DNA of 64,000 nucleotides, from contig NZ_ABIZ01000001.1 in NCBI RefSeq assembly GCF_000172155.1, forward strand, positions 7,349,105 through 7,413,104, written 5' to 3'. Positions 7,262 through 35,861 of the stretch are shown here, piece by piece (positions within the stretch are counted from its first letter, which is position 1; each line of letters begins with the position of its first letter). A model generated the notes under the pieces. The model ran no database searches. It saw only the letters and a program-made list of their open reading frames with translations, and was not told the DNA's origin. The DNA is from Verrucomicrobium spinosum DSM 4136 = JCM 18804 (lineage in GTDB: Bacteria > Verrucomicrobiota > Verrucomicrobiia > Verrucomicrobiales > Verrucomicrobiaceae). Both the position numbers and the translations under genes were made by a program.

Positions 7262-8248
7262 TCACGGGGTGGAAACCCTTGTCAGGGCGGAAGTGCGCAG
7301 AGCTTCATCTGTGATACCTTCTGCGTAGAGGCGAGCAATGCTCCGGTCGGTATCCGCCAAGATCCCCGCCATTGCTACGGCCGCTTCATCGCGAAAACTG
7401 CCTGCAGGCTCGCGCAACCACCATTGGTAGAGCGTTCCCGCATTCTGCTGCGCCCACACCCGTAACATCGCGTCCAACCCCTGAGTCCGCAGCTCTGCAT
7501 CTGGAATACCTGCAACCCATGCTGCGGCCGCCACTGGGTCCCGCTGAGCCCACCGTTGGAGGATCGCTGGCACCACCGCCATCTGCAGGCCTGGCTGGTC
7601 GATCTGCTCCGCCACATAGGTGGCGGCCAGCACTGGGTCTCGGGAAGCGATCGCGGGGAGAAGTCGCTGTTCGGCCGCCATCCGCAGTCCGGCATCATTC
7701 AATTCCGATGTCCATTGCAGCATTTCCCCCGGATTGCCGGCTGCCCACTGCGTCATCACAAAAGCAGCAGTCTCGTTCCGCGTCACGCCCGTCTCCATGG
7801 CGAGCGCGAGCTTCAAAGCATACTGTGGATCCTCCGAGACGAGTTCCACGGCCAGTGTTGCCAAACCGGCCTCGCGCAAACTCCCCTGCAAGGACAGCAC
7901 CCAGCGAACCGCGGCATCGGCATCCCATTCTACCCAGGCCGCCGAGAGCGAAGCGACCGCTGCGCTTCCCAGCTTGAGCGCCTCCTGACACGCCCTCTCC
8001 GGATCGTGCAAGACAAGAGCACGAAGGGCCTGGATATCTGCTGCCAACTCCAGCTCCTCGACATCGGGCGCGGTCTTGAAGCTGGGCAGTTTCCGAACGG
8101 AAACCGGGCGGGAGGAAAACGCTTCAGCCCCCGCACCGCGCCCCTCTGGGGGAGGAGATCCCCCCCCTGACCAACGGAACACGATGACTCCGCCCACTGC
8201 CAGCGCCCAGAGAGCCAGAGCCGTCAGTTGCGGGCGCTTCACGTTCAT
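7262..8248 (-). CDS. Membrane-anchored Trp/Asp-Pro repeat protein
   Basis: 328 residues. An N-terminal hydrophobic segment (LTALALWALAVGGVIVF) anchors or exports it; a Pro/Gly-rich linker follows. From about residue 60 the protein is helical, with repeats of the form 'W-x4-DP-x-A-x3-W' spaced irregularly (WVEWDADAAVRWV, TQWAAGNPGEMLQW, QRWAQRDPVAAAAW, RVWAQQNAGTLYQW). Such tandem-helix proteins are common in Verrucomicrobiota and presumably form a scaffold. The start overlaps the stop of the lyase gene by 4 bases (ATGA), so the two are made together. No catalytic motif; the role beside the lyase is unknown. Confidence 0.7.
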   Translation of the reverse strand: MNVKRPQLTALALWALAVGGVIVFRWSGGGSPPPEGRGAGAEAFSSRPVSVRKLPSFKTAPDVEELELAADIQALRALVLHDPERACQEALKLGSAAVASLSAAWVEWDADAAVRWVLSLQGSLREAGLATLAVELVSEDPQYALKLALAMETGVTRNETAAFVMTQWAAGNPGEMLQWTSELNDAGLRMAAEQRLLPAIASRDPVLAATYVAEQIDQPGLQMAVVPAILQRWAQRDPVAAAAWVAGIPDAELRTQGLDAMLRVWAQQNAGTLYQWWLREPAGSFRDEAAVAMAGILADTDRSIARLYAEGITDEALRTSALTRVSTP

Positions 8249-9582
8249 GGGACCACCGTGACATTGTCAAAGACTGCAGTAGTCGCCGCCGTAGCGTGCC
8301 GGCTTGTTGTCATCAGCCCGACGGTAATTTCTCCCGTCATCGAGATCGTCTGAGAAGAGGCGCCAGTCCAGGTTGTTCCGTCCGTGCTTTTGTAAGCGGT
8401 CAGTACATTGCCCACCCGGGCAATCCTGACCCACGTCGGTGCTGCTGAGGTCCCGAGAATCGTCGTGGAGACTCCTCCGCCGGTACTGGCCCGGTGTTTG
8501 GTGTTCATCACTCCTCCGATATTGCGGCCAAAGAAGTGATACTTCGAACCCGCGGCTGCGGTTTCCCGCACCATGATGCCCGCTAGTGGATTGCCATGGT
8601 TGCTCATGCTGACAAGCCGCGCCGTGATCTCACCATCGCCGCTCAGGGTCTGCAAAGCATACCGGAACCCATCGCTGGTGGAGTCAACCCCCATGCCCGA
8701 GCCTCTGAGGGTAAACACGCTTCCAATGGCCGTGGCGTAGCCCGGTGCCCCCACACTCCCAACGTTTCGCGTGCTCCAGCCAGCGGGCAACATGATGGAC
8801 GGATCCGCCTCGGCAAAGGTCGCCCCCACCTTGATATTATCATGGTAAATCACTCGTTTCGAGCTGCCAGTCGGGTTTGTCCAGTTAGCCTTGTACATTC
8901 CCCATTTCCAATAACCATCTTTGTTCATGGACAGTGTGGGTCCGATCCATTGCAGTCGTTTGACATAGGTGCTCTCGCTCGCTTTTTTGCAATAGAGACG
9001 GATCTCGCCACTCCCCATGTAGGAGGGAAGATGTTCAAAAACGAAATCATACCATATCCCTCTCTGGAAGGTCATGATGTTGGTGCGCCGGCGCACACCA
9101 TCATGATTTTGCGTCCAACATTTGAACCAGTTTTCATCGGTAAGCAGTTGGAACACGGCACCACCGTTTGCATGCTTCTGCTGCATGATCACTTCACTCG
9201 TGCTGTCGTACTCGTAGTTGCCCGGCTGCGGGTCAAGCAGGACAGAGAACCCGTAAAAGCGGCGCACTCCCCTTTGAACCATGGGGATGGTGCTTCCAGC
9301 ACTGCTCCTCAACAAGCGCTGGTTGCATTCCGCACGGATGCCAACGTCCGTCGTCTCTCCATAGTTCAACTCCGATCTCAAGGACCACATTCCCCAACGC
9401 GCGTAGTTCTGGCTGGCCACAACGCTCTCAGGTCTGGGCTCAACCACACCGATATATATGTCATTGTCATTCTGTTGCCCGGTCTCGTATCCGGTGACTG
9501 ATTCCGTCTCAGCCATCGCGCTGATGGACGCAAGTCCCCAGATTCCCAAGGTACCCCAGCCGGGCGCTCCCCGTCGCAGCAT
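8245..9582 (-). CDS. Secreted polysaccharide lyase (heparinase I-like fold) with C-terminal jelly-roll domain
   Basis: 445 residues from the ATG at 9582, which begins MLRRGAPGWG...SAMA and looks like a signal peptide. An in-frame ATG at 9738 would put 52 residues before it. The middle part has features of the PF14099-type lyase family: 'R.E...R..... RRFYGFSVLLDP', then 'WYDFVFEHLPSYMGSGEIRLYCK' and 'KWGMYKANW'. These lyases cleave uronic-acid polymers by beta-elimination. The last ~170 residues (DGEITARLVSMSN...GIMVRETAAAGSKYHF...STDGTTWTGAS...VFDNV) resemble the DUF1349/concanavalin-like domain attached to many secreted verrucomicrobial enzymes. It is translationally coupled to the Trp-repeat protein. 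The substrate is not determinable here. Confidence 0.72.
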   Translation of the reverse strand: MLRRGAPGWGTLGIWGLASISAMAETESVTGYETGQQNDNDIYIGVVEPRPESVVASQNYARWGMWSLRSELNYGETTDVGIRAECNQRLLRSSAGSTIPMVQRGVRRFYGFSVLLDPQPGNYEYDSTSEVIMQQKHANGGAVFQLLTDENWFKCWTQNHDGVRRRTNIMTFQRGIWYDFVFEHLPSYMGSGEIRLYCKKASESTYVKRLQWIGPTLSMNKDGYWKWGMYKANWTNPTGSSKRVIYHDNIKVGATFAEADPSIMLPAGWSTRNVGSVGAPGYATAIGSVFTLRGSGMGVDSTSDGFRYALQTLSGDGEITARLVSMSNHGNPLAGIMVRETAAAGSKYHFFGRNIGGVMNTKHRASTGGGVSTTILGTSAAPTWVRIARVGNVLTAYKSTDGTTWTGASSQTISMTGEITVGLMTTSRHATAATTAVFDNVTVVP

Positions 9583-10388
9583 GTTGATCGCTGTGGCAAA
9601 CGGCGTCAGGACCTTGCTTTGGAGTTTGGCAATGCAATTTCGGGTCAGATGCAGGATCCATGTGCCTTTCCCGCGGCAGGCACCGGAGGTGTGGTCTTGA
9701 AAAAGGCGCATCGGATCACTAACGCTCATGCATGCCATGAGATTCCTGAGTACAATCGCTTTTTTTCATAGGTCGCATCGGTTGTGGCTCGTGGACGATG
9801 GCACATGGATGCTGTCATGGGAGGTGCTGTAGCCATTCACTGCCCCTCTCGCAACGCATCAACCGCGGTACGAATACAGCGAGAGTCTCGGAGTATGACG
9901 TGCAGGTGGAAAAAGGTTTCAAAAAAAACGAGAAAAAATTGCCCTTTTTTTTCATGGAGTGTGGGCACGTTGGAAAAAGAACGGAAGGCCAATTTAGCAC
10001 CGTTCGAAGATACGATCAGAGGAGTCCGCTGAATGTTTGCCCGTCCCCCAGGGCATGACGCTGCCGGCCGGTCCGCAATGCACGATCCCGACATATTTCA
10101 TAAATTTTCGCACAATAAAACGGGATGCGACATATCAAGGGGCGTGATCTTCGAGAGCCTTCCATACTTCACAACTATTATAGACATCGCCTTCTCGTGC
10201 CCGATTGCTTCCATTTACGCGTATGAAAGTGAAAAATCTCCACCCGGCCATCAGAAGGGATGGAGGAGTGGCAATTGCATCTCCCGCCACTCAACACTCT
10301 GCTCAAGAGAAAATTCATTATTGCGATAGTCCAGGCGTCTCCTGAGTGACCTGCCGGCCAATCCATTTCTTCATCATTGAAAACATTT
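9583..10388. other. Divergent intergenic region between lyase and 846-residue protein
   Basis: No convincing gene is seen in this stretch. The few open frames have atypical composition and no recognisable motif. It is locally AT-rich: runs of A and T at 9919-9952, and an octamer CTATTATA at 10175-10182 that could hold a -10-like TATTAT for the plus-strand gene, though I see no good -35 partner. Promoters for both divergent genes presumably lie here. Confidence 0.4.
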
Positions 10389-20691: not shown

Positions 20692-20900
20692 ATTCCAAGA
20701 ACACCCTGCCAGTGCCAAGTTCCTGCATCCTCAGGAGCCTGGGGTGCGACGTTGATTCACCATCCACGTGACGGTCACGGTTCCGGGTCCATCGGCCTGG
20801 CTTCGTCATGCGCCACGCAGTTCAGGGGGGTGGACAGCGCCAGCATGCTCCTACCGTCCCGGCCTTCATGTGGCCTCCACATCCATTCAGTAAAACATCT

Positions 20901-23900
20901 ATGAAACAATCCACTCAACATTCCACCCCTGTGCACCGCAGAAGGCGGGGCATGGCACTGGTGATGGTTCTGGTGATCGTCTCACTCCTCATGACCCTGG
21001 TGTTGGCGATGCTCACCATGGGCTCCTCAGAGGCTCGTTCCGCAGCCGCGTTCAGTCAGACCAACCATGTGCGAAGTTTGGGCGAGATGCCTTCCACGAT
21101 CGTCATGGGGCAGATTCGGGAGGCAACCTCCAAGCTGGAGATGACACACACCTGGGCCTCGCAGCCCGGCATGATCCGCGTCTTTGGCACCGATGAAACC
21201 CCAATTCCAGGAAGGGCGGCTTTGAAAAAAGTCTGGCGTCTCTACTCCTCCCCCAAGATGACGGAGGATGGCACAGCATTTGACGCGACGATGGAGGCAG
21301 GCACCCTTTCTTCCTGGAGCACAAACCCGGCGCTTTTCACCGACCTCAACGAACCCGTCGCCACGATTCGTGCCGATGGATCCGTCAGAAAGGTCTATCC
21401 CATTCTCGACGAAAATGCCCTGACCACCACAGACGGTGTTACGAAAGGGAAGATGGCAGGCTTTGGGCTGGCCTCCAATGCCGGACCACCGGGCGCATCT
21501 GAGTTGCATCCATTGCCGATGCCCGTCAGTTGGCTTTACGTCTTGCAGGACGGGAAGATGATCGCTCCTGTCAGCGGAACCGGATCCACCGCAAAATTCA
21601 AATCTGGCGACGTCACTGCCACCAACCCCATTGTGGGCCGAATCGCCTTTTGGGCGGATGATGAGACCTGCAAAGTCAACATCAACACCGCGAGCGAGGG
21701 GACCGGATGGGACGTGCCGCGAACCACGAGTTGGACGGACCGCACCTTTGCCTTTTACCCGCCGGGCTTCAATGAGTTTCAACGGTTTCCAGGCCATCCG
21801 GCCATGACCTGCCTGAGCACCGTCCTGCAGGCATTTGACACCAAGTACGATTATCAGTTTCCGAGAACCCAGGCGGGTGGGACCGTCTCCAACAAGGATG
21901 CCTACCAGTCCTGGCTCAAGAGCATCTACAGCCTCACTCCCAGAATCAACCTCGGCAATGAGAACGTGAGTTCCATGGGAGGCACAGTGCCCTACAAGAG
22001 CCTTGCGGGCATTCCACTCAAGAGAGAGCGCCTCTTCAGCTCGATTGATGAATTTTTCTATGGCTCCGGTTATGACGCTCCCAGTCAGCAAAGACTCCCC
22101 ATCTCCAACGATAGCACCATCAATTCCCAGGACCTGGAGATGGGGCGCTTCTTCCTCACCGCCCACAGCCGGGCTCCTGAAGTCAACCTCTACAACCGTC
22201 CGCGCATCTCTCTCTGGCCCGTCCAGAATGAAACAGGCAAGCGCACAGCCAAGGACAAGCTGATGGTCTATTGCGCCACAACATCCAATCAACTGGGTGC
22301 ATTCCAGCGGGCGACCACCTGGGACAAAACCTCCAGCGACACCAAACCGTGGTCTGCTCTGAGCCCTACTGAAGACTTCCAGATCCAGGGCAACCAGACG
22401 ATCTTCTGCTATTTGCAGGAACTCACCAAGGCAGGAGCGCCTGGGTTTGGCTCCAGCAGTTTCGACGGCAAATACGGGGCACTCAATCGAAACCAGATTC
22501 TGCTGAATATGTTCGACCTTCTGCGCTGGGGGGTGAACACCCGAAACAAAAGGGATACGCCGGAGTACTTTTACCTTACTCCCGATAACTATCCAGGCGT
22601 CAAGGGAGAGCCAGCAGGTCAGGGATCGGCCGCGCCGGTTGTTGCAGCGAGCACTTCTGTAGAAACTTTCAGCCACAAGCTCAAGACGTTTGGCCGTTTC
22701 CCCTCAGTTGTGGAGGCATCAATCGTATTCATGGCCACGGACATCAAGAAAAAAGCGACTGACCCAAGTGTTCCACTCCCTCCTTCAGACGGGGACACCA
22801 ACGGAGCACAAGCCAATAAAATGCGCGCTTTTTTGATCCTTCAGCCTTTCGCCCCTGTGGCCGGCCTGCCCAGCTACACCCCCTTGCTGCGCTACCGCAT
22901 CAAGGGTTTGGATTCATGGAAAGTAAACGGTCAGGAGATGGGGTTCCCCGCAGACGCCGTCAATCGTTGTTGGACTCCTGGTGCCAAAGATAATGGGCGG
23001 TCATCTCCCTATTCCGGCCTGGTCGAACAGTTCCACGGGAAAACCATGGCCCCCAGCAGTGGGGGTGATGAAACTGCAAATTTCCCATTTTTCAGCGAGG
23101 AGATCGACCTCTCCTCCACGACCAAGGAGACGTTCGATTTCACAGGTGGACCCATCACGATTGAAACGCACATCGTCACCGGGCCGTCGGGCGCGGTGGG
23201 CGAGTCCACGCTGGTCCAAACCTCAACCATGGACTTTCCCAGCGCCTCTGGCTGGCCCTCACCTTCGCTCAGGTGGAACTTGAGCAAGATGCCCGCCAAC
23301 ACCTCTCTCGATGTTGCCAAGATGTACATGGACCTTGACCGGCGATTGAGGAGGACAAGCGCGGATACAGAGGTGTCGGCCGCGTGGATTTCAGAATATG
23401 TGATCGTCAAGGGTGACACTGTCCGCTCTGTCGTCGTCTCAGCCGCCTCTGATTCGACAACCAAAGGTGACTACCGCATGCTCTGTGCCCTGCGGGAAGT
23501 TCCCTCCCAGGCCTTTACTCACCACCCTGATTACTTCAGCACCACCAAAGCTGAGGCTCAATCCCTCAGGAATGGCGCAAAGACATCAGCCCCTCACTTT
23601 GGCCGGAGTTACGTAGGGCCAGGGACTATTTTCGGCCAGCAGCACGCTTGGCAGATTGCAGGCTACGACTTTGATTCGAAGAACAAGGTCACAAAAACCT
23701 ACGGATTGCTCAAGGATGTGCAATACAGTGACGTCTGCCAGTCAGTCGGACCGATCAAACTGGATGGGGCGTTCAATGCGTTCGATCTGCCTGGTGACTG
23801 GGATACAGGAAGTGGCGGCTTCGAAGATGGGCCGTATGTCAACAAGCCGGATGACAACGGCATGACCACAGTGGGAAAGAACGGTGCAGGGTATTATGGC

Positions 23901-24923
23901 CGCATGGCCGGCCTAGGCCAAGATTACACCGAAGCCTCCTCGTTCTCCCCAAACCGTCAGATATGCTCGGCAGTGGCATTTGGATCCTTGCCGTCAGGGG
24001 TTTACTCCATGCCCTCCCCCGTGAATAAGGCGGTCCCATGGCAAACGCTCTTGTTTTGCCCCAACCCACCATCTCGCTCCACAGGAGCGGGGCAGGAACC
24101 GTCGGAAGCGGACCATTGGGGATTTAAACCGCCACGCGACCACTTGTTTCTCGATCTATTCTGGATGCCCGTGGTGGAGCCCTATGCGATCAGCGAGCCT
24201 TTCTCAACTGCCGGAAAGGTCAATCTCAACACCCAGATCATGCCCTTTTCATACATTCGCCGGGACACGGGACTGTGTGCCACGCTGCGAAGCCTGAGAA
24301 TCACCGCTTTAACCCCCGACCTCGCATATGGAGGTGGCACACCTGCAAAGTGCTATAAGGATGTCAACTCGAGTCTGAGCTATGAAACAGCGCACGAGGT
24401 CAACATGGACGAAACGCTCAAAGGGCTCGCCCGGCGCTTTGACGCCGGAGACATCTATAGAAGTGCTTCGGAGATCTGCGACATCTTCCTTGTCCCCAGA
24501 AAAATCATTGGCCGAGACTATCCGCCTCATGACCAAACAGCTGCAAATCCCACCTATGCACAGATGGTCAACTGGTGGAACGGCTCCCTCGACAACCAGA
24601 AAGATGCGCACGAGCTCACGGGTGACAACCTGCGTGAATCGCCCTACAACCAGATCTACGCACGCCTCACGACGAAATCGAACACCTTCACCGTCCACCA
24701 TCGTGTCCAAGTGCTGAAGAAGGCCCGCTCAACGGCGGCTGACGAGTGGGATGAGAGCATGGACCGGATGGTCGCGGAAACCCGCGGCTCCACCCTCATC
24801 GAGCGATACATTGATCCCAACGACTCCCAGGTCCCCAACTTTGTCGCCAATCCCAAGCAAAGCGGTGCCCTCGACGACTACTATCGCTTCCGCGTCATTC
24901 TCAGAAAAACGTTCGCCCCGTAG
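20901..24923 (+). CDS. Verru_Chthon cassette protein A
   Basis: 1340 residues from ATG 20901 (MKQSTQHSTP); upstream in-frame codons from 20808 look non-coding. After a basic stretch (VHRRRRGMAL) a single hydrophobic helix (MVLVIVSLLMTLVLAMLTMG) resembles the N-terminus of PilX- or GspK-like minor pilins. The long exported part contains the family-type 'VNINTASEGTGWDVPRT' and 'KVNLNTQIMPFSYIRRDTGL' segments. This is the lineage-restricted family known as Verru_Chthon A, normally found with proteins B, C and D. Here B, C and D lie ~17.7 kb away (42590-44875). It is probably part of a pseudopilus or secretion apparatus; the function is not established. Confidence 0.88.
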   Translation: MKQSTQHSTPVHRRRRGMALVMVLVIVSLLMTLVLAMLTMGSSEARSAAAFSQTNHVRSLGEMPSTIVMGQIREATSKLEMTHTWASQPGMIRVFGTDETPIPGRAALKKVWRLYSSPKMTEDGTAFDATMEAGTLSSWSTNPALFTDLNEPVATIRADGSVRKVYPILDENALTTTDGVTKGKMAGFGLASNAGPPGASELHPLPMPVSWLYVLQDGKMIAPVSGTGSTAKFKSGDVTATNPIVGRIAFWADDETCKVNINTASEGTGWDVPRTTSWTDRTFAFYPPGFNEFQRFPGHPAMTCLSTVLQAFDTKYDYQFPRTQAGGTVSNKDAYQSWLKSIYSLTPRINLGNENVSSMGGTVPYKSLAGIPLKRERLFSSIDEFFYGSGYDAPSQQRLPISNDSTINSQDLEMGRFFLTAHSRAPEVNLYNRPRISLWPVQNETGKRTAKDKLMVYCATTSNQLGAFQRATTWDKTSSDTKPWSALSPTEDFQIQGNQTIFCYLQELTKAGAPGFGSSSFDGKYGALNRNQILLNMFDLLRWGVNTRNKRDTPEYFYLTPDNYPGVKGEPAGQGSAAPVVAASTSVETFSHKLKTFGRFPSVVEASIVFMATDIKKKATDPSVPLPPSDGDTNGAQANKMRAFLILQPFAPVAGLPSYTPLLRYRIKGLDSWKVNGQEMGFPADAVNRCWTPGAKDNGRSSPYSGLVEQFHGKTMAPSSGGDETANFPFFSEEIDLSSTTKETFDFTGGPITIETHIVTGPSGAVGESTLVQTSTMDFPSASGWPSPSLRWNLSKMPANTSLDVAKMYMDLDRRLRRTSADTEVSAAWISEYVIVKGDTVRSVVVSAASDSTTKGDYRMLCALREVPSQAFTHHPDYFSTTKAEAQSLRNGAKTSAPHFGRSYVGPGTIFGQQHAWQIAGYDFDSKNKVTKTYGLLKDVQYSDVCQSVGPIKLDGAFNAFDLPGDWDTGSGGFEDGPYVNKPDDNGMTTVGKNGAGYYGRMAGLGQDYTEASSFSPNRQICSAVAFGSLPSGVYSMPSPVNKAVPWQTLLFCPNPPSRSTGAGQEPSEADHWGFKPPRDHLFLDLFWMPVVEPYAISEPFSTAGKVNLNTQIMPFSYIRRDTGLCATLRSLRITALTPDLAYGGGTPAKCYKDVNSSLSYETAHEVNMDETLKGLARRFDAGDIYRSASEICDIFLVPRKIIGRDYPPHDQTAANPTYAQMVNWWNGSLDNQKDAHELTGDNLRESPYNQIYARLTTKSNTFTVHHRVQVLKKARSTAADEWDESMDRMVAETRGSTLIERYIDPNDSQVPNFVANPKQSGALDDYYRFRVILRKTFAP

Positions 24924-25049: not shown

Positions 25050-28000
25050 ATGAAACACTGGTTACTCCCCATCGTTGCCGCATTCGTGGCGTCACTGCCC
25101 CTAAGAGCGGATCCGCTCGTCTATCAAGGGACCGAAGGGCCGGGCAAAGGAAAACACATTGTTTTCCTCGCCGGCGACCACGAATACCGGTCAGAGGAAA
25201 CTGCACCCGCCCTGGCGCGGCTGCTGGCCAAGCACGAGGGCTTCAAGTGCACGGTCTTGTTCAACCTCAACCCCACGGATGGAACCATTGCCGCTGGCAA
25301 GTCGAACATGCCGGGCATGGAAGCGCTGGGCACCGCCGATCTGGCGGTGGTGTTCCTCCGGTTCCAAGTATTTCCCGACGAGCAGATGAAGCACTTGGAC
25401 GACTACCTGAACCGTGGTGGGGCGGTGGTCGGCCTGCGCACCTCCACCCATGCGTTCAAGTCCGAAAAGGGCGGCGTCTTTGAAAAGTACAGCACCAACA
25501 GCAAAATCAAAGACTATGAGGGCGGATTTGGCCATCAGGTGCTCGGGCAGACTTGGGTCGGCCACTATGGCAAAAATCATGAACAAAGCACGCGGATCAC
25601 GGTGATCCCTGACAAGTCTGCGCACCCCATCCTGCGCGGTGTCAAAGACGTCTGGGTACACGCCGGTGCCTATGTCGGCAAACCGGCAAGTGGTGAGGTG
25701 TTGACCATGGCACAGCCCCTCAACGGCATGACGCCAGACTCTGCGGCGGACACGACCAAGGCTCCAATGCCTTCGGAATGGACTCGCACCTACACATCTC
25801 CCTCCGGCAAAGTCGGAAGGGTCTTCACCTCCCTTTACGGTGCCTCTGAGGACCTGACCAACGAAGGGTACCGTAGGTTGCTTGTCAACGGATGCCTCTG
25901 GGCGGTCGGTCTGGAAGCAGACATCAAGCCTGACCTCAACGTTGCGCTGGTCGGCCCCTTCAACCCCAGCCCCTTTGGCATGAATTCTCACGTCCGCGGC
26001 GTCAAACCCGCGATGTATGAAGGCTTCTCCAGCCCCATCCCTGCGGCAGGCCCCAAACGCGACAGCGCGACCAGCAAAAGCGAAGAACTCAAGGGCGCAT
26101 TGCCCATTCTCAATGTCGCCTTGAAAGCAGAGGCTCCCGCCAAGACCAAGGGAAAAGGAAAACAAAAGCCCGCAGCCGCTCCCGAGCTGCCGCCCGCTAG
26201 TGTGCCCGAGGGTTATCGCGACCCCCTCCCATTCACGTTTCAGCAAAACGATGTGGTCGCCATTCTGGGCAACGGCCTCGCCGACCGGATGCAGCATGAT
26301 GGATGGACGGAGACTCTCTTGTACAGTCAGCTTCCGGGCCTGGATTTGCGCTTCCGCAACATGAGCACCAGCGGTGACCGGCCCGAGCGGCAGCCACGCA
26401 GTAAAGGCCAGATCTCCATGCCAGCCTACCTGCGCAAGGTCCAGCCCACGGTGGTCTTCGCCTTCTTCGGCTACAACGAGTCCTTTGACGGTGCCGGCAA
26501 GACAGACAAATACCGCCAGCAACTGTCTGACTTTGTCAAAACCACACGAAGCGCGCGGGCAGAGGGTGCCAAGGTGCCCCGAATTGTTTTATTCAGCCCC
26601 ATCGCCGCAGAAGACACCAAAGATCCCAACCTGCCGGACAACAAAGCTCTGAATCGCCAGCTTGAGATTTATGCAAAAGCCACAGAAGATGCTGCCCGGG
26701 AGTCGGGTGTCGCCTATGTGGATCTGTATCACCCTTCCCTGGAGCTTTATCAGAAAGCATCCTCACGCCTCACGATCAACGGGGTGCACCTCAGCAGCGA
26801 GGGCAATCGCCAGCTCGCAGAAGTCATTGCCAAAGCTCTGCTTGGCAAGGTGACAGCGGCTCCCGCATCTCTCGAAAAACTGCGTCAGGTCGTGCTTGAG
26901 AAAAGCCTCTTCTGGCACAACCGCTATCATGCCTCCAATGGGAACGATGTCTGGGGCAGCAGGTCCACCCTTGCCTTCGTGGACGGCCAGACCAACGCAG
27001 AAGTCCTGCAGCACGAACTCAACATGCTGGATGTGATGACATCGAACCGCGATGAACGCATCTGGGCCTGTGCGAAGGGCAAGGACAAGCCCGTGAGCGA
27101 CAGCAATGTACCGGCCCCGGTGCCCGTCATCTCCAACCTTGGCGGGAGAAAAAGTGCCAAGACTGCTGGCGCAGACCCCACCTATCTCAGCGGCGAACAA
27201 ACCGCGAAGTCCATCGCGGTGGCAAAGGGCTTTGAGGTCAATCTCTTCGCAGACGAGGCGAAATTCCCCCAACTGGCCAACCCCGTGCAGATGCAGGTGG
27301 ACACCCGCGGCCGGCTCTGGGCGGCCGTCTGGCCCACCTATCCCACTTGGGAACCTCTCAAACCCATGAAGGACGCCCTGATCATCTTCCATGATGACAA
27401 TGCGGATGGGAAGGCGGACCGGGCGACCGAGTTTGCCAGGGTGCAAAACCCGCTGGGTTTTGAGTTCTGGAATGGCGGAGTGATCGTCACCTGCCGGTCA
27501 GAACTGCTCTTCCTGAAAGACACCAACGGGGACGACATCGCCGACAGCCGCACCATTCTCCTTCAGGGATTCGACACGTCTGACACCCACCATGGTGCCA
27601 ACAATCTCACCCTCGGCCCGGACGGTGGCATCTATTGGCAGAGCGGCGTCTTCATGGTGCACAACTTCGAGCAGCCCTGGGCCTCCTCGCTGCAGACCTC
27701 AGCCTCGGCCATGTATCGGTTCAATCCTCGTCGCTTCAGCGTTGATGTGGTCGCCACCAACGCCCCCAACCCTCACGGCACGGCATTCGACTATTGGGGC
27801 TATCAGTACGCCACGGACGGCACCACCGGCCGCGCCTACCAGGTGCGCCCCAACGGCGGCAAGTTCAAGATGTTTGAACTGCTGAAGAAGGAAGTGAGGC
27901 CGGTGGCGGCCTGCGAGGTCGTTTCCAGCACCCAATTCCCGGATTCCATGCAGGGCGATTTCCTGATCTGCAACGTGATTGGGTTTCTGGGCCTCAAACA

Positions 28001-29075
28001 CTACCACCTGGAGCGCAATGCCACTGAAGGCACGGTGTGGGGCGAACCTGCAGGCGACGAACTCACCATCCAAAGCAGCGGGCCCAATGGAGAAGTGCTC
28101 CAGGAGAAGTCCCGCGGCTTCCTCATGAGCAGTGACAAAAACTTCCGCCCCTCCGACGCCATCTTTGGAGCGGACGGCGCCCTCTATGTGAGCGACTGGC
28201 ACAACACCATCATCGGTCACATGCAGCACAACGTGCGTGACCCCAACCGCGATCAGATTCACGGTCGCATCTACCGCATCACTGCAACAGGCCGCCCGCT
28301 GCAAAAGCCCGTGGCCATCGCGGGACAGCCCCTGACGGCACTGCTGGAAAACCTGAAGAATCCCGTGGACGGCATCCGCCACCGCACCCGGATCGAATTG
28401 AGCGGGCGCGATTCCAAAGAAGTGATCGCGGCGGTGCAAAAATGGACACAGCAGTTTGACCCCAACAAGGCTGAAGACGCCCACCCCCTCCTGGAGGCCC
28501 TGTGGTTGCACCAGCAGCACAACGTCCAGAATCCAACACTGCTTGGGCAATTGCTCAAGTCTCCGGAGTTGCATGCCCGCAACGCTGCCCAAGTGGCGCA
28601 AACCCTCTGGTCCAACGCGGGAAGCGCCCAGAAGGGCGGCACCATCCCCGAGGTGGAAGAGGAGGCACCGGTCAAAAAGTCAGGCGTTATTTCCGATGGC
28701 CCAGAGCTGACGGAAGTTCGCGTCGGCACCATTCGTGAAAAGCTGATGTTCGACATCAAGGAATTCACCGTGAAAGCCGGCAAAAAAGTCCGCCTCACTT
28801 TCGCCAACTCAGACTTCATGCCGCACAACCTGCTGGTGGTGAAGCCCGGCAAAGCGGACGAGATCGGCAATCAGGCCGTTGCCATGGGTGCCGCTGGCTT
28901 CGCGAAAGGCTTCATCCCCGACAGCCGTGAGATCCTCTGGTCCAGCAAACTGATTGAGCAGGGCAAGGAAGATGTGGGTGAGTTCCTCGCACCCACCCCG
29001 CCCGGAGACTATCCGTTCATCTGTTCCTTCCCCGGGCACCACATGGTGATGCGCGGCGTGATGAAGGTACGTTGA
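25050..29075 (+). CDS. Secreted ThuA / SGNH-like / PVC-dehydrogenase / azurin-like fusion protein
   Basis: 1341 residues from ATG 25050 (MKHWLLPIVAAFVASLPLRA, a signal peptide). Domains in order: ThuA-like (~30-290; IVFLAGDHEYRSEETAPALARLL, VGLRTSTHAF); SGNH-like (~400-610); PVC-type membrane-bound-dehydrogenase beta propeller (~725-1120; GFEVNLFADEAKFPQLANPVQMQVD, DNADGKADRATEFA, TDTHHGANNLTLGPDGGIYW); a helical linker; and a C-terminal cupredoxin with H1259, C1325, H1330 and M1334. The Cys-x4-His-x3-Met spacing is that of azurin. In the SGNH part the block I Ser is absent (G407-N-G) and the usual Asp of DxxH is Asn (N577-G-V-H), so hydrolase activity is doubtful. It has no CxxCH heme site. 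Probably a periplasmic sugar oxidoreductase passing electrons to its own copper centre. Confidence 0.85.
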   Translation: MKHWLLPIVAAFVASLPLRADPLVYQGTEGPGKGKHIVFLAGDHEYRSEETAPALARLLAKHEGFKCTVLFNLNPTDGTIAAGKSNMPGMEALGTADLAVVFLRFQVFPDEQMKHLDDYLNRGGAVVGLRTSTHAFKSEKGGVFEKYSTNSKIKDYEGGFGHQVLGQTWVGHYGKNHEQSTRITVIPDKSAHPILRGVKDVWVHAGAYVGKPASGEVLTMAQPLNGMTPDSAADTTKAPMPSEWTRTYTSPSGKVGRVFTSLYGASEDLTNEGYRRLLVNGCLWAVGLEADIKPDLNVALVGPFNPSPFGMNSHVRGVKPAMYEGFSSPIPAAGPKRDSATSKSEELKGALPILNVALKAEAPAKTKGKGKQKPAAAPELPPASVPEGYRDPLPFTFQQNDVVAILGNGLADRMQHDGWTETLLYSQLPGLDLRFRNMSTSGDRPERQPRSKGQISMPAYLRKVQPTVVFAFFGYNESFDGAGKTDKYRQQLSDFVKTTRSARAEGAKVPRIVLFSPIAAEDTKDPNLPDNKALNRQLEIYAKATEDAARESGVAYVDLYHPSLELYQKASSRLTINGVHLSSEGNRQLAEVIAKALLGKVTAAPASLEKLRQVVLEKSLFWHNRYHASNGNDVWGSRSTLAFVDGQTNAEVLQHELNMLDVMTSNRDERIWACAKGKDKPVSDSNVPAPVPVISNLGGRKSAKTAGADPTYLSGEQTAKSIAVAKGFEVNLFADEAKFPQLANPVQMQVDTRGRLWAAVWPTYPTWEPLKPMKDALIIFHDDNADGKADRATEFARVQNPLGFEFWNGGVIVTCRSELLFLKDTNGDDIADSRTILLQGFDTSDTHHGANNLTLGPDGGIYWQSGVFMVHNFEQPWASSLQTSASAMYRFNPRRFSVDVVATNAPNPHGTAFDYWGYQYATDGTTGRAYQVRPNGGKFKMFELLKKEVRPVAACEVVSSTQFPDSMQGDFLICNVIGFLGLKHYHLERNATEGTVWGEPAGDELTIQSSGPNGEVLQEKSRGFLMSSDKNFRPSDAIFGADGALYVSDWHNTIIGHMQHNVRDPNRDQIHGRIYRITATGRPLQKPVAIAGQPLTALLENLKNPVDGIRHRTRIELSGRDSKEVIAAVQKWTQQFDPNKAEDAHPLLEALWLHQQHNVQNPTLLGQLLKSPELHARNAAQVAQTLWSNAGSAQKGGTIPEVEEEAPVKKSGVISDGPELTEVRVGTIREKLMFDIKEFTVKAGKKVRLTFANSDFMPHNLLVVKPGKADEIGNQAVAMGAAGFAKGFIPDSREILWSSKLIEQGKEDVGEFLAPTPPGDYPFICSFPGHHMVMRGVMKVR

Positions 29076-30126: not shown

Positions 30127-31692
30127 TTAGAAAAGCCCAAGGTTGGCCGTTGAGGTGGTCAGCGGGTTGTCAAAATGCGGCAGGTTGGGCAGGATCGCAT
30201 CCATCGCACTGGATTGAACCCCAAACCAGTTCGCCAGCACGGCGGCATACTGGTCCACCGACACATCCGGGATGAGCAGACCCCGACCACTATGGGAGTC
30301 GATCGATCCAGGCTGGCCGCCCAGCTTGAGCGCTGGATAGTGGCCATACAGGTTCCTTCCCTTGACCCCTCCGCCCATGATGATGGAGTGGCTGCCCCAC
30401 GCATGGTCAGACCCACTACCGTTGGAGAGCAGGGTGCGGGCAAAGTCAGAGGCGGTAAACGTCACCACCTTGTCAAAGGCGTTGATCGCCGGAGCCTTGA
30501 GCGCATTTCTAAAGCTCAGCAGCGCTTGACTCACATCGGCCATCAGACCCGAATGGGCCGCCAGCATCCCGGAGTGATTGTCGAAGCCCGAGACATAGAT
30601 GAAGAACACCTGCCGCCGGTTGCCCAACGGGGCTCGGCCTGCAATGATCCGCGCAGCCATCTTCAGGTAGTTCCCCAACGGGGTCTGGGCATTGGCAAAG
30701 TAACTGTCAAAGTTCACCCCGGTGGCGGCCGCCGCAGCCAGACCCGCCGCCACCACCCCTTCTGTGTTGCGCGCCTGGCGGACAAACTCGTTGTACCGCT
30801 CCTCCAGCAGTTGGTCATGAGTAAGGCGCATGATGTCTTCGAACGCCTTCAACTGGCGTCCCAGCGCGCTGTTGATGTAGCCCCCGGTGACATCACCGGG
30901 GATGTTGTAGGCAAATTTGTAGTTCAACCCGTAGGAACCCAGGGACACCGGGCCATCCTGACCAATGATGTACTGCTCCACTCCGTCCCCTGACCCGGAT
31001 TGGAAGGAGTTCAGGCCCGTCATGGCAACTGACATGGAGATCTTGCCCCCCTGGTTGTACGAGGCATTGATCAAGTCCGCCACCCGCCCGCCCCAGCCAG
31101 AGCTGAACGGCTTGTCTGAGATGGATGACTGCCACTGAACCTGCTGATCAGAATGGGAAAAGAGCCCCATGGGCACCGGCACCGTCCGGTTGATGAAGTC
31201 CGCCCGGCTGGCAATGGGATGCACCAGCGTTCCGACATTGGTCACGAAAGCAAGATCACCTGCATTGAACATGTCTGCCAGCGGCCTGGCGTTGGGGTGG
31301 ATGCCCATCTGGGGGAACGCCCCTCCGTAGTACTTCTGGAAGGCACGGGTGGGCACGTCAGGAGCGGCGACGGGCAGGTTCAAGGAATGAAGCCCCGCCC
31401 GCGGTTGCACCAAATTGCCACGCGCGGCCTCATAGTCGCGGCGCGCCTCATCACTCGCCGGATCCCCCATGGGCACCAGCATGTTGTTGGCATCGTTGCC
31501 CCCGCCGAGAAAGACGCACACCAGCGCCTTGTAGTCGTCCGTCCCGGGCGGCGGATCTGCCGCCACCGCCAGATTCATGAGCCGGATCTGCGCCAGGGCG
31601 TTCACCATGCCCGTGACCCCCATGGAAGCACACGCGGTGCGGCTGAGGAAGGCACGTCGGGTGTCCATCTTCTTGGTAAGTGAAAGGTTCAT
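30127..31692 (-). CDS. DUF1501 family protein (exported, phosphatase-superfamily-like)
   Basis: 521 residues from ATG 31692 (MNLSLTKKMDTRRAFLSRTACASMG), with a twin-arginine-like signal; upstream in-frame codons to 31929 look non-coding. Family features: ALVCVFLGGGNDANNMLVP, NVGTLVHP, FSHSDQQVQWQ near the middle, and SDFARTLLSNGSGSDHAWGSHSIIMGGGVKG and DVSVDQYAAVLANWFGV near the end. DUF1501 proteins belong to the alkaline phosphatase-like superfamily; their substrate is unknown. It lies 20 bases after DUF1800, and the two families are normally paired. Confidence 0.9.
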   Translation of the reverse strand: MNLSLTKKMDTRRAFLSRTACASMGVTGMVNALAQIRLMNLAVAADPPPGTDDYKALVCVFLGGGNDANNMLVPMGDPASDEARRDYEAARGNLVQPRAGLHSLNLPVAAPDVPTRAFQKYYGGAFPQMGIHPNARPLADMFNAGDLAFVTNVGTLVHPIASRADFINRTVPVPMGLFSHSDQQVQWQSSISDKPFSSGWGGRVADLINASYNQGGKISMSVAMTGLNSFQSGSGDGVEQYIIGQDGPVSLGSYGLNYKFAYNIPGDVTGGYINSALGRQLKAFEDIMRLTHDQLLEERYNEFVRQARNTEGVVAAGLAAAAATGVNFDSYFANAQTPLGNYLKMAARIIAGRAPLGNRRQVFFIYVSGFDNHSGMLAAHSGLMADVSQALLSFRNALKAPAINAFDKVVTFTASDFARTLLSNGSGSDHAWGSHSIIMGGGVKGRNLYGHYPALKLGGQPGSIDSHSGRGLLIPDVSVDQYAAVLANWFGVQSSAMDAILPNLPHFDNPLTTSTANLGLF

Positions 31693-31712
31693 CTTGGTGA
31701 TCTTGTAATGGC

Positions 31713-34700
31713 TTACTTCTGAATCATTCCGCAGGGGGAAGTCATGACGAGGGCAGACGCCAGCCGCAGACGCTCCTGTAGAGCCGACATCTGGGTCTGA
31801 TGGTTGGTGCTGGCATCCGAGGTGGAGTTCAGGTACACCGTGTGAATGATGATGTCCCTGGGGTTGTCCCCCCTTGGCGCTGCCGTTGAGAAACCGGCTC
31901 CATGCCTGGCCTTGAGCGCCCCGCTGCAATAGTAGAGGTCAAACTGGTCCACCAGCGCAGCACAGGCCTCAATGATGCTGTTACGCTGATTGAAGGCTGA
32001 GTCAGCCGGGCTGATCGTCTCGTCCCCGTTGGTGTCCATGATTTGCATGTAGGGCTCTTCCAGTCCCGTCGTGCTTGTCACGACATTCACATCACCGGGC
32101 CTGTAGCCGAACGGATTGTAAACCGGGTGGGGGTCGCCATTCGCATCCACGTTGTTCTGAGTCCGCAGATCGCGTCCCACAAAGCTGGACAAAAAGAACC
32201 GGTTAATCTGAGAGATCGACGTGATGGCATCGACCGTCTGAAATTCAGGCACCGCCAAACCGGCATCTGCGATGGCACCCGGAAGGGTGAAGTCAGGCAG
32301 GAACCAGTTGAACACGGAGGGTTTGCCAAACGGCAGCTGTTCAAGGGTCTCTTTCTTGAAGCGAATGAAGGTGGGTGGCGTTTCAAACTTGGCCAGCTCT
32401 GTGGGGAAGCGATTGGCCATCGCATAAGCAGGCCCGTACCACGCCTTGGCAAGGACGCCGGTATCCGCGAGGTGCGAAAAAGGAATGTCACTGTGCGCTT
32501 GCAGCACACGGAGCCAGCCAATCGCCTGAACGACAGGCTCTTTCTTCCGACCATAGGCAGCGCTGCCGGCAACATCCAGAGAGCGGGCCTCATAATCCAG
32601 CAGAACCGCCTTGATGACGGCACCCAGATTGCCCCCGGTGTTTTTCCATACCTGGGTCACCCTGTAGATGTAGCCGGCGGACGGGTTGGAGGTCACCAGG
32701 CGCTGAATGATGCGGCGGATGATGAACGGGGCAGTGCTGGGGTGATTGGAAAGGAAGTCCATCACGGCATCCAGATCTGTCTCCCCGGTGCCTCCTGCCG
32801 GGATATTGAACCCAAGCACGGGGAAGGTTTTGGCTCCCGTGTCGTGATAGTCACTGAAGTTCTTCATGCGCTGGGTGACACGCTCCTGGTGGGGAGAGCC
32901 GCCGTCGCCCATGAAAAAGTTCGCATTGTCCCGCATCACCCCGTTTTTCAACTCCCTCGAATAGCCCCATCCTGTGAAAACTTTTGCCATTTCCGTGATG
33001 TCTGTCTGCTCATAGGTGGGCAGGGGCAGGCCGTTCTGGCCCAGCACCAGCGAGCCGTCTTCATGCAGATGCAGGAGACCTATCGAGAAGAGTTGCATGA
33101 CTTCACGGGCAAAGTTCTCATCGGGCAGTGAGATGGGATTGCCGCTCGCGTCATACCGGGCTTTCTGATTGCGCAGGTGGGAGAGGAACAGTCCCATCGT
33201 GGGATGGGTCGCAACCCCTTCCAGAAGCGTCCGGAAGCTGCCCGTACAGCCATTTTTAAGCATGTCTTCGAAGTGACTCACCCCTACGTGCTTCTCGTAC
33301 AGCCTGTCATCGTCGTTGATGACAAATATCTCTGAGAGCGCGAAAGCACTGCGGCGGCGCAACTGGTCAGGCGCATAGATGGCGTAAGTATGCCAGCATT
33401 TGGTCTGGTTGCCCGGCAGCGCTTTCGTGATGCTAGGATCATCCGAGGGGGCGCCCAGGGTGTTGAGATAACGTTCATGGGCATCGGCCGCATCCACCGC
33501 GGGCGCAAGATCCGGGGAAGGGCGTGAGAACTCATTGTCAATCCAGGCAGAAAACGCCGCCATCCGGTCCCCATTGTAGGGAGGGGACATGACCATCGCC
33601 TTCATCGCCTCTACCGAAACTTGTGTAGGGCCAAATGTGGCCTGAGTCAGGAAGCGGAAGATGTCGCGCTCCAGATCCGATCCTGTCAACGCTGGCAGGG
33701 CCGGAGGGGCAGGTGGGATCACCAGCTCCGTGGATCCACTGATGGGCACAAAGGGACCACTGATCTCTCCGGAGGGGTTGGTGATGGAGGCAATGTTGAG
33801 GTGGATCCCCGCGTCGAGCAGTTTGTCGAGCACGGCTTGATCTGTGGTCAGGATCTGTCCCGCAATGATGTCCCAGGAGGCATCTTCCGCCTGACCTCTA
33901 GGCAGACTCTTGAGGTGCGTGCCCAGCGGGCTGTTGATGGTCAATATCGCCGTGGCCTGGGAGGAAGTAAGACCATAGAACCTGATGTTGACCAACGCCG
34001 AGGCGTTGTCCCCCTTGAGGCGGATGGTGGCAATACCCGACCCCTCTGAGGTGACGCCTGCCATGGGTGCGAGCTGGGCCACAAGCAGCTTGTCATTCGC
34101 CGGCACGTTCGTGGCATCATGGATCTTGACCAGTGTGCGCTGGGTGCTTCCCAACGGCCCGCAGGCCAGGGTTTCAGGCACTTCCACTGCACCATCCTGC
34201 ACGGGTGCCACGAGCACCTCCACACTGGAGGATCCGGCAGGAATCAGAACGGCCCCTGAAATGGGCGCGCCACCCATCGACTTCAGGACAAAGTCGCTCG
34301 TGGAGGCCGATCCCTTGGTGCCGTCTGGATCGCCCCCATAGGTCAAGATCACAGGAAGTGCGCGAGCGCTGGATCCCGTGCGCGAGATTCTGATCACCGC
34401 AGGGGTCTGCTCTTTCTCATACCCCAGAGCCGAAACCGTCGATACAGAGACAATCTGGTTGGTCACGCCGGCAGCCCAGTCCTGAGCGAGGATGAGATCT
34501 GCACCAGGTTGCCCGGTGCCAAAAGAGTCAGGATTAGTCGGGTCAAAGCCCTTGATTGCCCTTTCTTCCCAGTCTGTCAGTTGATCGCCGTCCTGGTCAC
34601 GATCCACCACCGAAACCCAAAACTCGGTCTGGCCTGCGCTGACATTGATGGTGATGGGAAGCTGTCCACCCGTGCCCGGCACCGGATCCCCGATCCGGCT

Positions 34701-35714
34701 CCAGTGGATGCCTGTCACGTCAGCAGCATGAACCTGGTAAGCCTTGCCCAGCAGGCTGTTCACAGTTAAGGTCACCTGGTTGGCCGCCGGCCCGTTGCTC
34801 ACCACCACACTCAGTTTCGAGTTCACGTCACGGGGATTGGTCCCCGCTTTCATCTCCTCATAGTTGGACTGCCCGTCTCCGTCGGCATCCGCGGCACGTG
34901 CCTCAGGCGTGGCCACCAGCATCCCCGCGTCAAAAACCGCACTCCACACCTTGCTCAGCCTTCCATAGGAAGAGACCGTCGTCTCTCCCGGCACATCGTT
35001 GTCCACGATCAGAGAGTTGACGGGAACCTGCGTCGCGCCATCCAGGCGAATGCGGCCCGCAGTGAGCAGTGGCCCGAAGTTGAAGTTTTCCCCGGCAACA
35101 GTGATGGTTCCCCTCCCCCCACTGAGAAGGTTGATAGAGCCGACACTAAAACGGGAGTCAGGCATGCTCCGCACGATCAACTGCCCGCCATTCAGCGTCG
35201 TGATACCACTCCCTCCACGATACTCACCGCAGATGAGCCGGGAAGCCCCGGTGAGTTGCAACGAAGCACCCGTGCTGTCCAGGCTGAAACGGGTAGCACC
35301 CAGATCCAGTTTGGCATCAGCCTGAAGTGAAATCGTAGCCGGCCCCAGAGGGGCCAGGGAAAGACCGATAGTTCCCTGAGTGTGAATGAACGCGCTCTGT
35401 CCCTTCAAGTTCAAAGTGCCCCCACTCAGCTTGATCGTATCTGTCGTTCTCGAAATCAAAGTGGCATCCCCTTGCAGGGTGACCACTTTGTTGGAAAGCG
35501 CATGCTGTTCAGAGGAGTTCGCAGGGTTGTTCAAAATTTCCGCGCGACCTCCGCTGCCAATCACCCCTGGCTTGGTTGAACCTGGAATCCCAAGGGTCCA
35601 ATTGCTGCCAGCCGAGAAGTCGTTGCTCGAAACTCCGGTCCAAATCGTGTCGGCAGCAGCCAATGTGCCGCCCCACGTCATGATGAGACATACCAGACTA
35701 TTGATGGTTTTCAT
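31713..35714 (-). CDS. DUF1800 family protein with Calx-beta and CHRD-like domains
   Basis: 1333 residues from ATG 35714 (MKTINSLVCLIMTWGGTLAAA, a signal peptide). Residues ~20-270 are a beta-helix-like adhesin region (LSGGTLNLKGQSAFIHTQGTIGLSLA). A Calx-beta-like segment lies near ~430-530 (VIRISRTGSSARALPVILTYGG). A CHRD-like segment follows at ~540-650 (ATIRLKGDNASALVNIRFYGL, NPSGEISGPF). The DUF1800 domain starts near 690 (RDIFRFLTQATFGPTQ) and includes LRRRSAFALSEIFVIND, MLKNGCTGSFRTLLEGVATHPTMGLFLSHLRN, ENFAREVMQLFSIGL and AYGRKKEPV. First gene of the operon with DUF1501. Surface location is likely; the biochemical role is unknown. Confidence 0.88.
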   Translation of the reverse strand: MKTINSLVCLIMTWGGTLAAADTIWTGVSSNDFSAGSNWTLGIPGSTKPGVIGSGGRAEILNNPANSSEQHALSNKVVTLQGDATLISRTTDTIKLSGGTLNLKGQSAFIHTQGTIGLSLAPLGPATISLQADAKLDLGATRFSLDSTGASLQLTGASRLICGEYRGGSGITTLNGGQLIVRSMPDSRFSVGSINLLSGGRGTITVAGENFNFGPLLTAGRIRLDGATQVPVNSLIVDNDVPGETTVSSYGRLSKVWSAVFDAGMLVATPEARAADADGDGQSNYEEMKAGTNPRDVNSKLSVVVSNGPAANQVTLTVNSLLGKAYQVHAADVTGIHWSRIGDPVPGTGGQLPITINVSAGQTEFWVSVVDRDQDGDQLTDWEERAIKGFDPTNPDSFGTGQPGADLILAQDWAAGVTNQIVSVSTVSALGYEKEQTPAVIRISRTGSSARALPVILTYGGDPDGTKGSASTSDFVLKSMGGAPISGAVLIPAGSSSVEVLVAPVQDGAVEVPETLACGPLGSTQRTLVKIHDATNVPANDKLLVAQLAPMAGVTSEGSGIATIRLKGDNASALVNIRFYGLTSSQATAILTINSPLGTHLKSLPRGQAEDASWDIIAGQILTTDQAVLDKLLDAGIHLNIASITNPSGEISGPFVPISGSTELVIPPAPPALPALTGSDLERDIFRFLTQATFGPTQVSVEAMKAMVMSPPYNGDRMAAFSAWIDNEFSRPSPDLAPAVDAADAHERYLNTLGAPSDDPSITKALPGNQTKCWHTYAIYAPDQLRRRSAFALSEIFVINDDDRLYEKHVGVSHFEDMLKNGCTGSFRTLLEGVATHPTMGLFLSHLRNQKARYDASGNPISLPDENFAREVMQLFSIGLLHLHEDGSLVLGQNGLPLPTYEQTDITEMAKVFTGWGYSRELKNGVMRDNANFFMGDGGSPHQERVTQRMKNFSDYHDTGAKTFPVLGFNIPAGGTGETDLDAVMDFLSNHPSTAPFIIRRIIQRLVTSNPSAGYIYRVTQVWKNTGGNLGAVIKAVLLDYEARSLDVAGSAAYGRKKEPVVQAIGWLRVLQAHSDIPFSHLADTGVLAKAWYGPAYAMANRFPTELAKFETPPTFIRFKKETLEQLPFGKPSVFNWFLPDFTLPGAIADAGLAVPEFQTVDAITSISQINRFFLSSFVGRDLRTQNNVDANGDPHPVYNPFGYRPGDVNVVTSTTGLEEPYMQIMDTNGDETISPADSAFNQRNSIIEACAALVDQFDLYYCSGALKARHGAGFSTAAPRGDNPRDIIIHTVYLNSTSDASTNHQTQMSALQERLRLASALVMTSPCGMIQK

Positions 35715-35861
35715 AGGAAGGTGGGCATTGCAAAAAACAAGAGGTCTTGAGAATTTCCGTTGTCCCCGGTGGGACATGAGAGCGACGCTACCCAGATGGC
35801 TGCAGCGTCAGTGGAGGCGTTGAGACAGGGGCTCCAAGGATGCCAGCCGCCGGGGTAGAAG

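Follow-up and report, generated by a model that had tools for sequence, protein, structure and literature searches.

The functions of the PVC-specific cytochrome proteins are unknown, and their genes have been reported to neighbour sulfatases (PMC5615132). Among known enzymes, the fungal AA12 dehydrogenases already combine a sugar-oxidising propeller with an electron-transfer domain in one protein (PMC6881789), and an arginine is important for PQQ reactivity in both sGDH and AA12 (PMC6881810, PMC6881789). The single planctomycete match of an azurin survey was judged to be contamination or wrong annotation, and that survey nowhere uses the words fusion, heme or multidomain (PMC8779525). More than 30 propeller-cytochrome proteins are encoded by genomes like that of Verrucomicrobium spinosum. 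To our knowledge, no activity is known for the family (TIGR02604/DUF7133). Here, we analysed a window of 64,000 nucleotides from V. spinosum DSM 4136, in which one gene joins such a propeller to a C-terminal azurin-like copper domain, a fusion of which no description was found in the searched open literature. Its parts are ordinary and their combination is uncommon, and the protein is a variant of a huge family rather than a new machine.

The gene is a complete open reading frame of 1,341 aa on the plus strand of the window (25050–29075; ATG at 25050, stop at 29073–29075), with the order ThuA, SGNH, DUF7133 propeller, helical linker and cupredoxin; on direct reading of the translation, the frame, the residue numbering and the named residues of the first-pass annotation were all exact. 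All parts of this gene given below lie on the same strand. A probable Sec signal peptide (MKHWLLPIVAAFVASLPLRA, 25050–25109), read from the sequence by eye rather than with a predictor, is followed by a ThuA domain (residues 53–285, 25206–25904; Pfam PF06283, 45.7 bits against a cut-off of 33.4). Calling this domain sugar-binding, as had been done, found no support in the analysis; a search of the region against the PDB gave zero matches. ThuA is encoded by a separate gene in several relatives. An F5/8-type C (galactose-binding-like) domain separates ThuA from SGNH in most close orthologs, and at this place ortholog comparison shows only a low-complexity linker in the present protein (26055–26231); two congeners (G001 and G003) have the F5/8-type domain. 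The SGNH/GDSL-fold domain (residues 398–592, 26241–26825) was recognized by Pfam (Lipase_GDSL_2, residues 421–587, 46.7 bits, over the curated cut-off), by the AlphaFold2 model and by PDB fold matching. The beta-propeller (residues 716–1078, 27195–28283) was assigned by profile and fold, with DUF7133 over its curated cut-off (residues 716–1078, 199.4 bits) and TIGR02604, the NCBIfam model named 'PVC-type heme-binding CxxCH protein', at 184.5 bits against 122.2 (residues 727–1080). According to the AlphaFold2 secondary structure, a helical linker (residues 1095–1189, 28332–28616) leads from the propeller to the cupredoxin.

Directly upstream lies a 1,371-aa open reading frame with a pilin-like N-terminal helix and without a Pfam match (20808–24923, plus strand), and a pair of DUF1501 and DUF1800 (with CHRD) genes adjoins the fusion gene on the minus strand (30130–35777). 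Sulfatase genes stand beside or near seven orthologs (L085, L086, L073, L078, L089, L092 and L094), as has been reported for genes of PVC cytochromes (PMC5615132); none was seen directly beside the present gene in the window. Other clusters of conserved neighbours were mostly antisense shadows, and the sulfatase group alone was real.

The C-terminal tail (residues 1223–1340, 28716–29069) is an azurin-like cupredoxin domain by Pfam (Copper-bind, PF00127, 41.0 bits against a gathering cut-off of 21.2), by sequence match in the PDB and by superposition. Its best solved relatives are auracyanin A, matched by sequence with E 3.5e-14, and the blue copper protein 6kol (Roseiflexus auracyanin). The ligand residues H1259 (28824–28826) and C1325, H1330 and M1334 of the loop C1325-SFPG-H1330-HMV-M1334 (29022–29051) show no variation in any of the 56 homologous fused copper domains compared, whose selection motif already contained the Cys, His and Met ligands, with H1259 outside it. 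As far as sequence comparison goes, the auracyanin match and this ligand identity put the copper-domain assignment far beyond chance. In an AlphaFold2 model of residues 715–1341 (mean pLDDT 91.5), the cupredoxin superposes on auracyanin A with a TM-score of 0.88 and 1.8 A rmsd, on the Roseiflexus castenholzii auracyanin with 0.87 and on azurins with about 0.82. The proposal of the first-pass annotation that an azurin-type copper domain is fused to a PVC-type propeller is thus upheld by ligand spacing, Pfam score and superposition alike, and the superposition speaks against scattered ligands. Because cupredoxin fold, ligand spacing and ligand invariance come together, a type 1 copper site is very likely, and the domain is presumably loaded with copper. 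It is not azurin itself, since it scores 32.9 bits on the azurin equivalog model TIGR02695, against a cut-off of 105.1.

Of 387 genomes sampled across the phylum, 67 have a relative of the copper domain, and among the matches listed it lies within an open frame of at least 800 aa in at least 24 genomes. A copper-domain tree, built on a short alignment that leaves many forks unresolved, places the fused copper domains in at least two groups, one centred on the present protein and one on the HEAT-containing chains. Azurin-like domains with intact ligands also occur in Planctomycetota MAGs (L119, L124, L125, L130 and L135), where binning errors are possible.

The suggestion that copper stands in place of heme is not supported as worded. 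No CxxCH motif occurs anywhere in the 1,341 residues, and no decayed cytochrome c was found in the 500 bases after the stop at 29075. Among 97 related chains, which include the present one, were picked by similarity and hence give biased frequencies, 38 bear a copper tail, 23 a heme tail and 18 both; the other 18 bear neither, and several of these are truncated at contig ends. In six of the nearest relatives (L085, L087, L089, L090, L091 and L099), a cytochrome c follows the copper domain within the same chain, an order confirmed by Pfam for L085, and identity to these close relatives is 70–71%; heme-only relatives (L080, L081, L096, L097 and L100) share about 55–60% identity over the core. 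On a tree of 86 cores, from which the direction of change is not readable, the 77 rows whose tail type was assigned (the others being excluded) require at least five changes in copper presence and at least eight in heme presence. A one-for-one swap of heme for copper is ruled out by the chains with both carriers and by the heme-only relatives, and these together with the repeated changes on the tree leave no simple heme replacement. Rather, the terminal carrier is modular: it is copper, cytochrome c, copper followed by cytochrome c, or the product of a separate neighbouring gene. The last arrangement is found in L138 and L148, where the propeller gene stops early and the next gene encodes copper domain plus cytochrome c.

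In L148, a Pirellulaceae MAG, the protein encoded directly after the SGNH-propeller gene (7547–10075) has the order Redoxin (AhpC/TSA), cupredoxin, cytochrome c. At 4.50 Mb, the host genome itself has a split form of the fusion, in which a cupredoxin-PA14 protein is encoded immediately upstream of a weak DUF7133 propeller gene (L200:2315–5494). The succession of azurin-like domain and c-type cytochrome in the six close relatives could form a copper-to-heme wire. Within the host genome, 32 of the 37 TIGR02604-like chains examined have CxxCH, three have neither carrier and two end in copper, one of them at 5.607 Mb and the other, a weak match of 1,502 aa, at 7.116 Mb; the present protein, additional to the 37, is the third with a copper end.

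The same evidence bears on what the copper is for. A cupredoxin that stores, senses or delivers copper instead of carrying electrons appears very improbable: nothing speaks for it directly beyond the probable secretion of the protein, whereas the complete His-Cys-His-Met type 1 site, invariant over the 56 domains, and its interchange with a c-type cytochrome both indicate electron transfer.

What would supply those electrons is most plausibly the propeller. By fold, it comes closest to PQQ sugar dehydrogenases (3a9g, Z 26.2, 282 aligned residues at 2.9 A; 2ism, Z 25.9), and profile-profile alignment to the GSDH family gave a probability of 98.7 with E 1.8e-15. This alignment pairs H848 (27591–27593) with the region of the sGDH catalytic His and P906-N907 (27765–27770) with its Arg-Asn pair; the reference positions are His144, Arg228 and Asn229, which we take to be those marked by the GSDH motifs (H..G.L..GPDG and RNP.G) and by established knowledge of sGDH. 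Thus, the His and the Asn are kept and the PQQ-activating Arg is lost, to Pro906 here and to Pro or Ala throughout the clade wherever the motif is readable. In the host genome, a PqqC search gave no match, with its control set blank, and PqqE matches fell below the cut-off. The earlier label of oxidoreductase is therefore plausible from fold and alignment and from the retained His, with the clade-wide loss of the Arg against it; PQQ as the cofactor is uncertain, as that loss is joined by the lack of a convincing PQQ synthesis gene.

The propeller might instead be a hydrolase or lactonase of the DFPase/SMP-30 type, or a binding scaffold, with a tail that serves some other redox partner, protects or senses. 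Folds without redox function follow close behind the dehydrogenases (DFPase Z 24.4 and gluconolactonase Z 23.5, with AA12 at 23.3), and this small gap and the missing Arg count against an oxidoreductase, as sub-threshold SGL Pfam matches in relatives count for a hydrolase. We regard such an activity as unlikely, though it deserves to be kept in view, because most complete chains bear a copper or heme tail whose type has changed repeatedly, as would be expected if the tail carried electrons for a redox enzyme, and because the GSDH alignment is strong, with both His and Asn kept.

The SGNH domain is modelled with confidence (pLDDT 95.7, AlphaFold2), and its best PDB matches are 4q9a (Z 19.2) and, among acetylxylan esterases, Axe2 (3w7v, Z 18.6). 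In block I, G407-N-G-L-A-D-R413 (26268–26288), Gly409 takes the place of the catalytic Ser, and in the last block, N577-G-V-H580 (26778–26789), Asn577 stands at the canonical Asp position of block V, with His580 present. The domain had accordingly been described as catalytically degenerate. The absence of Ser and Asp is confirmed, whereas decay does not describe a clade-wide trait with conserved alternative residues: the block I Ser occurs in just four of 94 chains and the last-block Asp in 10 of 97, so most family members do not keep the active residues, and degeneracy peculiar to the present protein is ruled out by the family-wide loss of the Ser. Position 409 varies (Gly 43, Thr 23, Ala 15, Asn 8, Ser 4). 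Over the 94–97 chains, however, G407 is invariant, and N408 is kept in 86, R413 and E421 in 93, R436, G474 and E477 in 94, N577 in 85 and H580 in 83; with D443 added, the set N408, R413, E421, R436, D443, E477, N577 and H580 is conserved in 83–94 chains. By these counts, Ser and Asp are missing family-wide, and what is left of the site is strongly constrained; judged from the residues, it has diverged rather than decayed, with 'non-catalytic' a candidate label. With its near-invariant Asn, Arg and Glu, the domain may bind a ligand or have taken on a different chemistry. That it retains esterase or transferase activity through another nucleophile, which would make the protein a deacetylase-oxidoreductase, seems rather doubtful to us: the conserved set and the fold near acetylxylan esterases suggest a site in use, but the rarity of Ser and Asp opposes it and an alternative nucleophile is not evident. 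Such an enzyme would be compatible with an oxidoreductase propeller.

Building on the computed domains, ligand residues, folds and tail modularity, we infer the electron transfer, its direction and the class of substrate. On balance, we lean towards an exported, sugar-related propeller oxidoreductase whose electrons leave through the built-in copper centre. This multidomain PVC-type protein would probably act outside the cytoplasm on a ligand that is a sugar or derives from one. The redox-active domain would be the beta-propeller, with a quinoprotein-like pocket and its catalytic His retained; electrons would reach the azurin-like type 1 copper centre, which the helical linker joins to the propeller, before being handed on to a carrier that is either soluble or membrane-bound, while the SGNH fold, retained throughout the clade without its Ser-Asp-His triad, may bind ligand or perform altered chemistry. 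A bolder generalization, which we hold to be improbable as it stands, is that PVC bacteria and their neighbours possess a widespread class of secreted oxidoreductases with interchangeable or stacked copper and cytochrome c, a non-PQQ-like pocket and an SGNH domain re-purposed to an Asn/Arg/Glu site; in a chain with stacked carriers, the series would run from the propeller through copper to heme.

The value of the locus lies in the interchange of copper and heme on one uncharacterized core and in the conserved non-canonical SGNH site. Copper, heme and copper-plus-heme tails on a single core amount to a natural experiment on whether that core is a redox enzyme and on what it oxidizes. The copper-tailed variant should be an easier handle on the propeller family, as heme maturation is not needed and the protein should be blue and spectroscopically readable.

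Among known systems, the PVC-type heme-binding CxxCH proteins share with the present protein a propeller core well over the cut-off, apparent secretion, the same phyla and, for its orthologs, frequent sulfatase neighbours; it differs from them in the absence of CxxCH, the azurin-like end and the ThuA and SGNH domains in front. The AA12 pyranose dehydrogenase of Coprinopsis cinerea, in which cytochrome b and CBM1 are attached to a PQQ propeller, likewise joins a sugar-dehydrogenase-like propeller to a one-electron carrier and has a carbohydrate-binding-like domain, as do the orthologs, whereas the present protein uses copper instead of heme b, is without the PQQ-activating Arg and has the additional ThuA and SGNH domains. 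With the Axe2-type acetylxylan esterases it has the SGNH fold in common, but not the catalytic Ser and Asp of their Ser-Asp-His triad. The auracyanin/azurin family provides the same fold, His-Cys-His-Met ligands and Cys-x4-His-x3-Met spacing, the difference being that here the cupredoxin is fused to an enzyme chain of 1,200 aa.
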